A DNA stretch of 46,653 bases from Treponema sp. (GTDB lineage Bacteria; Spirochaetota; Spirochaetia; Treponematales; Treponemataceae). The stretch's first letter is position 1. Each line of letters starts with the position of its first letter. The notes under the pieces are model-generated. The model did not search any database, was not told where the DNA came from, and saw only the letters and a program-made list of their open reading frames with translations. Of this stretch, positions 39,017 to 42,439 are shown in pieces. Both the position numbers and the translations under genes were made by a program. The stretch is taken from the NCBI GenBank assembly GCA_024699235.1, contig JAILPY010000026.1, forward strand, positions 1 through 46,653, written 5' to 3'.

Positions 39017-40111
39017 CTATTTTGCAAAAGAGTCTTTTTTCTGTTTTTCTTTGTTCTGTTCCATTACAAACTGTATGAAGAAGTCTTCAAGCGTATGTTT
39101 TGGACCTTCCAGATGAAGTCTTTGTCTTGCCCTTGCATTGTCTCTTCGTACGGTATACAGCAGATAGAAGTCTCTGTAATCAAGATTGACATCTGTCTTA
39201 ACTCTTTCTCCTAGATATGCGCTTACTTCATCACGTCCTATTGCTTTAACACCTTGTTCTTTTAAAATTGTTCTAAGTCTGTTTATCTGCTCGTAAGAAA
39301 TGCCAAATAGGAATTCTTCCATTGCTTGAGAAACTTCTTTGTCGCCAAGCCTATTTTTTATGAAAAAATTCCATTGACTGTCCATCTGTATGCTTACTAA
39401 AAGCAGTTCACTGGTACCCATCATTGTTCCAAAGGCAGGAGCAAGCTGTCTTCTAGCCCTCCATACCGCCTGTAATACAGGAGCTATGTCTGTAATTGTT
39501 TGGTCTGCACGGTGTTCCCACAGAATTATGAGAGATGTTGCTAGTTCCCGTCTTGTTTCAAGAGCAAGGGTTTTGTCTCTGATAAGATTTAGGTATACAT
39601 CTTCTGCCATGAGAGTAAACATCATTGAAATTGTTTCGTCAAAATATTCTTCAGACTGTTTTGCATCCATTTTGACATAATTTTTTGCCAATTTATACAT
39701 TGAATAAAATGTATGCATTTTTGAGACTAAAAGACCTTTTCCTAGCGTTGCCTTTGATGGAAGGTGTAGCGTCGTATCACCGTCTTCTTGATATGAAACA
39801 AGACTTTCTACAAGTGCTTCTGGTGTTCTTACTGTGGTATTGGTAACAGTTCTCTCTAAAAGAGATGGGAATGTTGCAATTACTTTTGCAAGATTTTCTA
39901 CTTTCCTGAGTCTTTCTTCTAAATGTTCCAACTTTTCAGGAGCATGTTTGTGAAGTTCATCGAGGAGTTTCTTTATTAGTTTCTGCTGATGAGGTGTTAT
40001 AAGGACGATACCAGATGAAATGGTGTCGTCTTTTAATTCATTTTTATCAAAAAAAGAATCAATGCTTACCTGTATAAACTCATTTGTCTCTGGAGTCTTA
40101 TTCTTTTCCAT
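39017..40111 (-). CDS. Conserved spirochaete-type hypothetical protein
   Basis: A 364-residue soluble, mainly helical protein I do not recognise. It is rich in Leu, Glu, Lys and Arg, with a possible coiled coil at about 45-85 and a basic C terminus. There is no signal peptide, membrane segment or catalytic motif. Two ATGs are possible, 40117 and 40111; the second is preferred because the predicted transcription start (40113) lies between them. There is no Shine-Dalgarno. It is followed by the XRE-cupin regulator at 17 nt and is divergent from the von Willebrand A protein gene. Confidence 0.8.
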
Positions 40112-40211: not shown

Positions 40212-41846
40212 ATGAAGAAATTTGTTTTGCTTTTTAGTCTTTTTTTATCTATAATAAGTGGCATCGCTTGTGCTGCTGATAAGTCTTTGGAAAACCTTTT
40301 CGTCTTCAAAGAGGATATTGTTGTTGAAGAGAGAGATTCCGACTGGCAGACAAATGGCGTTGACCTGTATATACGTAAAAAAGACGGCATGGAAAGCGTA
40401 ATGCTTGTTGAAACTTCTAAGGATCCTGAAGGTAAGATGGATAATTTTGCTTATAGGGCAGAAGAATATAATACAGTAAACGGAGATGAAATCCGTTATC
40501 TGAATGGGACCGTTTTAAAATCAGAATATGCAAAATACAGTTTGATTTCTTCTACCGTTGTTCAGCATCCAAAATTAGGAGACTGTTTTCATATTTACAT
40601 TCCTAGAAAACTTGTTTACGGTTATCCTTGGGAACGTCATGGTTCTGTTACTATAGACAAAGGTTTTTTCATTAATATAAGAACATTTACTAAAAAATAT
40701 TGTGACTATTCCGGAAAATTTGCAGATAATCCATTTATGTTTGATTATCAGACTCTTACGACTATAACAAAGCGTGAAAAACCAAGGCCTCCTGCTCCAA
40801 AAAAAGAAAAAAAAGTTAAGAAAACAAAACCTCCTGTAGAAGAAAAGAAAGAAATAGTGCCAGAAGATGATGGTTTTGTACCTTCAGAAGATATAATAAA
40901 AGAAATTAAACCTGAACCTGAAGTAAAAGAAGAAGAGCCAGAACCTGTTATTATTCCAGAAGAGGAAATAAAAGAACTTGAGCCAGAACCTGAACCTGAA
41001 GTAGAAGAAGAACCGGAACCTGTAGTTATTCCAGAAGAGGAAATAAAAGAACTTGAGCCAGAACCTGAACCGGAGCCAGAACCTGAACCTGAACCGGAGC
41101 CAGAACCTGAACCTGAACCGGAGCCAGAACCTGAACCGGAGCCAGAACCTGAACCGGAGCCAGAACCTGAACCGGAACCGGAGCCAGAACCAGAACCTGC
41201 TATTACTTTGACAGATGATTATGATGCAAAAGCGGCAAATGAGTTTAATAATCTTGCTGACAGGGGAAAGGGAATGATGATGTATTCTAAAGGTGCAGAT
41301 ACATTGCCGGAAGATCTATATAATCTGGTTGACTCAATAAACCCTAAAGGCGATGTTGATATTGTATTTGCTATTGATGCAACTGGAAGTATGAAAGATG
41401 ACCTTGAGAGTTTGAAAAAGAAATGGGTTCCTATGCTCATGGAACAGCTTGAAGAATTTGAACATATACGTCTTGGATTGTTATTCTACCGAGATTATAA
41501 GGATGATTATTCTTATAAGCAGCTTCCTGTTAAACTTTTTGAGTTTACAGATTCAGGGGAAGAATTTCAGTCTAATATAAGTTCTATTCGTATACGAGGC
41601 AGTGAAGGCGGTGATATTCCAGAACCTGTTTATGAGGCACTTTATGCAAGTCTAAAGTATTTTGACTGGCGTTCTGATGCAACAAAGAAAATAATACTGA
41701 TTGGAGATGCTGCTCCTCACAGTAAGCCTCGGGGACGCATAAAAGTAACACAAGATTCTGTAATGAAACTTGCAGAAGAAATGGATGTATCTGTTGACTG
41801 CGTTATTGTTCCTGATGGAAACAGTAAGACTCGTCATTATTTCTAA
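40212..41846 (+). CDS. Secreted von Willebrand A protein with a (Glu-Pro)24 spacer
   Basis: A 544-residue exported protein. Its start is ATG 40212, giving signal peptide [21 protein letters not shown] with probable cleavage before ADKS; the longer upstream frame crosses the divergent promoter and is rejected. Residues 25-190 form an unrecognised N-terminal domain. Residues of about 195-281 are a Lys/Pro/Glu-rich linker containing a duplicated unit ([18 protein letters not shown]), and residues 282-329 are 24 uninterrupted Glu-Pro pairs. Residues 385-544 form a von Willebrand A domain with the MIDAS motif DATGSM (Asp389) and a later GGDIPE. The rigid acidic rod likely spans the periplasm and holds the adhesive domain away from the membrane. 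A terminator follows. Confidence 0.88.
41055..41198 (+). repeat. In-frame Glu-Pro codon repeat, 24 units
   Basis: 144 bp of near-tandem six-base GAR-CCN units with third-position variation, arranged in higher-order 12- and 18-bp blocks. It encodes (EP)24. A preceding imperfect duplication of about 70 bp lies at about 40930-41060. Both invite slippage that would change length in frame. Confidence 0.95.
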
Positions 41847-41902: not shown

Positions 41903-42439
41903 TTAATTGTAGTAATATGCATCTGGATCGTAATATTCTTCTTCATCTTCGTAATATTCTTCTTCATTAGAAGATTCACTTTCATCAGCATATTCATCAT
42001 AATCAGATGCCGTTTCTGCATCATTTTTTATTCTGGATTGTATTTCAGCCATTTTCTTTTCAGGTACTTTTGCTAAATCTGTTTTTGCTAGAATAATGTA
42101 TTCTCCTGGTAAAGAACCTGGAACGCTTGTGTCATAAATATCAATAATTTCTTGAAGCATAGGCACTGCAATGTCATATTTTTTCTGTTTTAGGTACATA
42201 TGTGCAAGCTCAAATCGTCCTTCTACATAATCATTTGTGTAGTTACCGTATCTTTGCAGTAATATTTTATAGTAATATTCAGCAACTTTGTAATGATTTT
42301 TGTCATAGGCTGATTGTGCGAGCTGTATTATCTCTCTGTCTGTCATATCGCTTGGGGGCGGTTCTTTAGGAAGTGATTCGCATGAATAAAATGCCATAGT
42401 GGCTGCTATAAAAAGCACTAAAAATCTTGAACGTTTCAT
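41903..42439 (-). CDS. TPR-containing lipoprotein with acidic Tyr-rich tail
   Basis: A 178-residue lipoprotein: signal MKRSRFLVLFIAATMAFYSC with lipobox FYSC (spirochaete-type relaxed box, Cys20). Two TPR-like helix pairs lie at about 35-115 (AYDKNHYKVAEYYYKILLQRYG and FELAHMYLKQKKYDIAVPML). The last 35 residues are almost only Asp, Glu, Tyr and Ser. The TPR part resembles small YfiO/BamD-like fragments, but the length is too short to claim that. The tail may bind metal or a basic partner. The promoter is an extended -10 placed exactly for a leaderless mRNA. Confidence 0.82.
   Translation of the reverse strand: MKRSRFLVLFIAATMAFYSCESLPKEPPPSDMTDREIIQLAQSAYDKNHYKVAEYYYKILLQRYGNYTNDYVEGRFELAHMYLKQKKYDIAVPMLQEIIDIYDTSVPGSLPGEYIILAKTDLAKVPEKKMAEIQSRIKNDAETASDYDEYADESESSNEEEYYEDEEEYYDPDAYYYN

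Follow-up and report, generated by a model that had tools for sequence, protein, structure and literature searches.

Why does a secreted protein of a treponeme carry a long, strictly alternating run of glutamate and proline in front of a von Willebrand A (VWA) domain? The run lies in the window, by which we mean the whole analysed stretch of 46,653 nucleotides from a Treponema sp. genome assembly. It was originally predicted to form a stiff, very acidic rod of TonB-like character, to precede an adhesion-type domain, and to gain or lose units in frame. We show here that the protein is a member of a so far uncharacterised family of spirochaete proteins, built of a signal peptide, a beta-rich domain, a variable linker and an integrin-beta-like VWA domain. 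The array probably forms the stiffest section of a spacer holding apart the two conserved domains, or heads, of a soluble periplasmic protein.

The protein and its Glu-Pro array

The coordinates of the gene, its parts and its neighbours are collected in Table 1. The ATG at 40212 is most likely the start codon, rather than position 40020 given in a mechanical list of open reading frames, because the apparent signal peptide comes right after it. The hydrophobic 19-mer beginning at residue 4 is the sole strong hydrophobic segment of the protein, and a simple lipobox pattern was absent from all 28 aligned relatives (window included). A signal peptide without a lipobox or a second hydrophobic segment makes soluble periplasmic the default location. 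Secretion of a VWA protein was predicted correctly, and these features give no support to the proposed surface exposure.

Table 1. Features of the locus in window coordinates
Feature	Position	Strand	Residues	Basis and remarks
Divergent neighbour, 366 aa	39017..40117	-		No Pfam or NCBIfam match; adjoins the family gene in 60/80 loci (best 80 of 280 relatives)
Gene encoding the secreted protein, 544 aa	40212..41846	+		Domain homologues; stop codon 41844-41846
Signal peptide	40212..40274	+		Cleavage probable after Ala-Cys-Ala (residues 19-21), site judged by eye
Conserved N-terminal beta-rich domain	40296..40745	+	29-178	No Pfam family reported
Variable linker, 154 residues	40746..41207	+		Profile boundaries; net charge -39
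75-bp direct duplication within the linker	40909..41071	+		Repeats ending EPEP; score 273; 46-bp exact repeat
(Glu-Pro)24 array	41055..41198	+	282-329	Sequence, translation and repeat analysis
VWA domain	41358..41819	+	383-536	Pfam; fold of a short-linker relative resembles integrin beta chains
DATGSM, MIDAS-like metal-site motif	41376..41393	+	389-394	
Convergent neighbour, TPR lipoprotein	41903..42439	-		Weak BamD-like similarity; neighbour in 55/80 loci (best 80 of 280 relatives)

The N-terminal domain comprises about 150 residues and its predicted model is confident (pLDDT 89.5) and beta-rich. No Pfam family matched it at E values up to 0.1, and NCBIfam offered no usable family for the 544-aa protein as a whole. 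A Foldseek search returned nothing at E <= 0.001 (best 0.041), and the best VIA-align match (Z 6.7 over 85 residues) was below the level regarded as meaningful for that tool. The terms 'Ig-like' or 'beta-sandwich' might be used for the modelled domain purely as a description of these weak structural matches. Matches to BamJ were also weak (E 0.23 and 0.047) and far below the cut-off.

The C-terminal domain scored above the cut-offs of two Pfam families, VWA_4 (E 1.8e-7; 31.3 over a cut-off of 27) and VWA (E 2.5e-6; 28.2 over 23.8). Integrin beta chains are the nearest structural matches of the fold predicted for a short-linker relative (best Foldseek E 2.5e-8), and a family profile of the domain searched against solved structures found integrin beta-8 chains only at E <= 0.001 (9 sequences). 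A canonical MIDAS consists of DxSxS with further Thr and Asp ligands, and we take the DATGSM motif to be MIDAS-like. Residues D389, T391, G392, S393, M394 and D468, and with them the DxTxS pattern and the aspartate of GGDIPE, are invariant in 28 sequences; metal binding is putative. VWA domains are a general protein-binding fold and nothing found here points to adhesion, so the adhesive role that had been assigned to the domain is not supported.

The array itself is as first described: exactly 24 Glu-Pro pairs, 48 residues encoded by 144 bases, follow each other in frame without interruption in both the DNA and the translation. The hexamers GAGCCA (7), GAACCT (9), GAACCG (7) and GAACCA (1) are ordered as 18-bp (abc) and 24-bp (abbc) blocks, which agrees with the block structure noted before and shows that the array grew via duplication of such blocks. 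The 75-bp duplication sits just before the array and overlaps its start. A search of the 2.81-Mb genome (93% complete) with the pattern (GARCCN)x4 gave 21 overlapping matches, all inside the array; the reversed control pattern gave 0 matches, and no run of at least four Glu-Pro codon pairs was found outside the array. Since the four-unit codon pattern occurs nowhere else in the genome, the array is a real feature and no chance run. The exact count of 24 is to be read with an assembly caveat, because it rests on an assembly in which the array contains exact repeats of 53 bp (the longest) and 50 bp.

Glu-Pro runs of at least 8 units were found in just 7 of 146 genus genomes, namely four in the VWA-family gene, two in a clostripain-type lipoprotein and one in a TPR protein, and a general habit of the genus was therefore rejected. 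In one clostripain-family (C11) protease frame (L152:1063-2859; Pfam E 1.5e-38) the run is located between the N-terminus and the catalytic domain; the second clostripain-type frame with such a run (L153) ends at a contig end. The TPR-like protein of one genus member (L156:1068-3047) is large and acidic and has a pure run of 16 units.

Distribution of the family and variation of its linker

One genome per species was compared, and the nearest records, which are 77% identical in DNA, were taken as other species. The N-terminal domain was present in 133 of the 146 sampled genus genomes and in 114 of the 146 sampled order genomes; of 59 relatives, 52 had the VWA part. Among named records, Treponema sp. 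assemblies are nearest, and one of these (L043) comes from roe deer rumen. Homologues were found in Treponema ruminis, T. porcinum and T. berlinense, and the relatives are host-associated, many of them from ruminant gut records. For the structure alignments, A2 included the window and 56 of 66 locus rows, and A3 included 32 of 38 rows with short linkers. The alignment A4 consists of 19 chosen rows.

Gene neighbourhoods were compared for related loci defined as the best 80 of 280 relatives. The two conserved neighbours of Table 1 are both missing from 10 further loci of this set, and neither is present at any of the six loci of a clade with helix-type linkers described below. Because of this different neighbourhood the helix-type clade is possibly paralogous, and its linkers may not occupy the same slot in orthologues. 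The BamD match of the TPR lipoprotein (E 2.3e-7) is under the cut-off, and its acidic tail contains a 21-bp duplication (41928-41967).

Linkers were tabulated from 107 frames with both heads, giving 95 non-identical rows; L002, L052 and L056 (VWA only, start missing) were excluded. Across the relatives both heads are conserved, whereas the linker that joins them differs in length and kind: it ranges from 7 to 289 aa with a median of 33, and 16 of the 95 are at least 100 aa long. Ten of these long linkers are Glu/Pro-rich and form one clade with the window (SH-aLRT 97). The remaining six (L040-L042, L044, L045 and L047) form another clade (SH-aLRT 100) and are 131-146 aa long, with 1-3 prolines and many Glu, Lys and Arg residues. 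In the linker of L040, i,i+4 pairs of opposite charge outnumber those of like charge by 45 to 8, and the linkers of this type have 10-12% hydrophobic residues. To judge from charge pattern and composition, they are probably single alpha-helices of the ER/K type. In a quick tree the linker class switches at least four times, and long and short linkers interchange at least twice.

Glu-Pro runs of at least 10 units are present in five of the 95 relatives. The two species nearest to the window have longest runs of only 6 and 5 units, broken by Tyr-Glu-Glu, Ile-Glu-Glu and similar, and the next clade carries (EP)25, 22, 13 and 12, the first two in L054 and L055 with total linkers of 275 and 277. 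The expected gain and loss of units in frame is thus borne out between lineages. One further row of the 95 (L060:6018-6197) has (Glu-Glu-Pro)20 at the site where its nearest relatives carry Glu-Pro arrays, and its silent codons are mixed.

In the genus sample, every N-domain frame of at least 485 residues was examined (24 in all), shorter frames having no room for a long linker, and 13 of the 24 have linkers of at least 100 residues. Two of these 13 are second-copy N-domain/VWA frames (L212 and L213), whose Ser/Gly/Asp-rich segments of 406 and 454 residues may have been inserted near the border of the VWA domain. At least five frames are incomplete (280, 312, 314, 320 and 267 aa) and stand outside the linker classes. 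Of the order members read from outside the genus, most have linkers of less than 30 residues.

The second head varies as well. One frame (L188:338-2527) has the same N-terminal domain, with an FGE-sulfatase-like domain in place of VWA at its other end (Pfam E 6.5e-20), and another (L211:383-2293) combines the N-terminal domain, an acidic Ser-rich linker and an FGE-sulfatase-like end (Pfam E 1.2e-14), which supports a modular reading of the family. In L188 some 20 helix-like repeats of the EAARIEAEKLAQE type follow one another in tandem between the two heads.

Explanations for the array

We consider it probable that the array serves as the stiffest part of a spacer between the N-terminal beta-rich head and the C-terminal VWA head. 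As an extended polyproline-II rod, with a rise of about 0.31 nm per residue, the 48 residues would reach about 15 nm; no width of the spirochaete periplasm to set against this value was found in the part of PMC7225975 that was consulted. Each head would bind a different partner, the linker would set the distance between the two partners, and the array might have been kept since extension and rough total length outweigh exact sequence. Stiffness is suggested by TonB, in which Glu-Pro repeats form polyproline-II rods, and by the exchange of TolA/TonB rods between helical and polyproline forms with partial function. The spacer reading is further supported by the conservation of the heads while the linker spans 7-289 aa, and by the different extended elements in the slot, namely (EP)24, (EP)25/22/13/12, (EEP)20 and a putative helix. 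The same holds for L188, in which a long linker of helix-like repeats joins the N-terminal domain to an end without VWA. An extended and very acidic spacer, as was first proposed, is therefore supported or at least made likely.

The rival that survives best, although we regard it as rather unlikely, is neutral repeat expansion in a permissive linker, in which slippage or unequal recombination made (EP)24 without functional effect. The wide variation in linker length and make-up, the recent duplication of 18- and 24-bp blocks, the absence of a pure run from the two nearest species and the short linkers of most relatives are all consistent with this. Close comparison argues against it. Outside the Glu-Pro part of the linker, pN/pS in four pairs was 0.031/0.72, 0.067/0.63, 0.129/0.65 and 0.095/0.58, so that replacements are far rarer than silent changes and the amino acids of this part are constrained. 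Values for the whole linker are weaker evidence, since its silent sites approach saturation and the alignment of Glu-Pro on Glu-Pro hides change, which makes pN/pS inside the array circular. Total length is similar within close groups (coefficients of variation of 2.9, 6.8, 5.2 and 9.1% in four groups) despite 13-28 gapped alignment columns in the four compared pairs. In addition, Glu-Pro runs with zero interruptions are seen again in the next clade, where they are encoded by a mixture of synonymous codons. A similar length within close groups, a varying charge and constrained amino acids outside the Glu-Pro part support the spacer reading. The linker of the window (154 aa) is also close in total length to those of the two nearest species (155 and 164 aa) despite their different inner Glu-Pro pattern, which is a point against the free tuning of length that repeat gain and loss had been thought to allow.

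Several observations weigh against a spacer: most relatives have short linkers, so that the family can do without a long reach, the helix-type clade may be paralogous, and the two nearest species are without a pure long Glu-Pro run. In addition, a short-linker relative was modelled at pTM 0.81, and the heads may pack together with a long linker simply looping out.

A function as polyanion is quite improbable. The Glu-rich stretch would then bind a basic partner or cations, calcium for the metal site of the VWA domain being one example, and its stiffness would be incidental. The net charges of the linker (Table 1) and of the mature protein (-56) fit this, and in the clade that includes the window all ten Glu/Pro-rich long linkers have a strong negative charge (-27 to -76). 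However, long linkers of the helix type have a net charge close to zero (0 to -5), and among the short linkers several have no net charge or a positive one. With net charges of -39 to -76 on one side and 0 to -5 on the other, charge is not a common property of long linkers, and we read extension as the property that they share.

A surface stalk of an adhesin is very improbable: the integrin-beta-like fold of the VWA domain and the host-associated relatives are in its favour, but the window protein has no anchor, as judged by the lipobox pattern (0/28) and the single hydrophobic segment, and the N-terminal domain is more widespread in the order than expected of a host-adhesion trait. Least probable of all is that assembly produced the purity of the array or its count, an idea that could draw on the 210 contigs of the metagenome-assembled genome, the exact repeats of 53 and 50 bp and the interrupted arrays of the nearest species, but one opposed by independently assembled records of other species, in which this gene carries pure runs of 10 to 25 units, by the intact flanking frame and by exact repeats that are shorter than common short reads.

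The spacer reading can be extended, as a tentative and rather doubtful proposal, to motor-free periplasmic 'callipers', in which a second head that can be exchanged (VWA or FGE-sulfatase-like) would be held at a lineage-specific distance from the conserved beta-rich one. The rods would be Glu-Pro or Glu-Glu-Pro polyproline in one clade and single alpha-helices in others, converging as rulers with length, not sequence, under selection. An alpha-helix rises 0.15 nm per residue, and helices of 131-146 aa would span about 18-20 nm if fully helical, next to about 15 nm for (EP)24.

Comparison with known systems

Domain II of TonB contains Glu-Pro and then Lys-Pro repeats which form polyproline-II rods with some flexibility, according to the part of PMC10771500 that was consulted. 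The window protein resembles TonB in the strict alternation of Glu and Pro, in its probable periplasmic location and in the expected extended rod followed by a C-terminal globular head. It differs in that it has no SHLS inner-membrane anchor and no Lys-Pro block, a VWA domain replaces the TonB C-terminal domain, and no motor gene is adjacent. An SHLS motif was found within the first 60 residues in 0 of the 28 aligned relatives including the window, where the N-terminus reads as a signal peptide; TonB was absent from the Pfam matches at E values up to 0.1, and the C-terminus lists VWA-type families. A search of the genome (93% complete) with the MotA_ExbB family gave one match, a 260-aa frame on contig C105, and none on the contig of the window (C129). 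The TonB-like character claimed for the array is thus supported for composition only.

In TolA and TonB, the rod at a given place may be alpha-helical or polyproline, and proteins with swapped rods retain part of their function, as described in the portions consulted of PMC12204202 and PMC10666116. Homologous heads joined by rods that differ in secondary structure between lineages are common to these proteins and the present family. TolA and TonB are force transducers on 5:2 motors, unlike the window protein, which is secreted, has no SHLS anchor and has the order head-rod-head. By layout, the closest published kind in the sources consulted is the proposed vWA force transducer of the Tichowtungia type (PMC12204202, in part). 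Proteins of this type have tolQ/tolR-like neighbours and a transmembrane helix, in many cases with SHLS. The window protein shares with them a C-terminal VWA domain behind a linker that is proline-rich or disordered, and differs by starting with a signal peptide and a beta-rich domain, by having no transmembrane SHLS helix and by the location of the MotA/ExbB match on another contig.

Long pure Glu-Pro repeats are also known from the GPI-anchored coat protein EP procyclin of Trypanosoma brucei (PMC5289646, in part). This is likewise a secretory-pathway protein, but a eukaryotic one, and the likeness is compositional only; the Pfam family Trypan_PARP (PF05887) reached 27.5 bits against a cut-off of 100, in the repeat region only.

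Tp0750 of Treponema pallidum is a periplasmic non-lipoprotein with a VWA domain (PMC7521688 and PMC5956850, both in part). It is comparable in location and domain, but it is 224 aa long and consists of VWA only. Orthology was rejected: the VWA profile (A4) gave no match at E <= 0.001 in genome G061, which holds a 227-aa VWA frame (L182, taken as the Tp0750 counterpart) with DKSRSM instead of DATGSM. The complete 1.14-Mb genome G061 matches neither head and has three Pfam VWA matches, one of which is this frame of Tp0750-like size. G161, of the same genus as G061, has the N-terminal domain and no VWA match at E <= 0.001; G170 has both.

In the open-access literature, with subscription journals mostly outside the scope, no earlier report was found of a proline-rich VWA protein in Treponema or of a bacterial VWA protein with Glu-Pro repeats. 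The window marks a conserved family whose function is uncharacterised, and its natural series of 7 to 289 residues asks what selection on a periplasmic linker acts on: length, stiffness, charge or nothing. The swapping of polyproline and helical rods is known from the motor-driven TolA and TonB; here, a widespread spirochaete protein without a recognisable motor link has an equal range of rods joining its two conserved heads.
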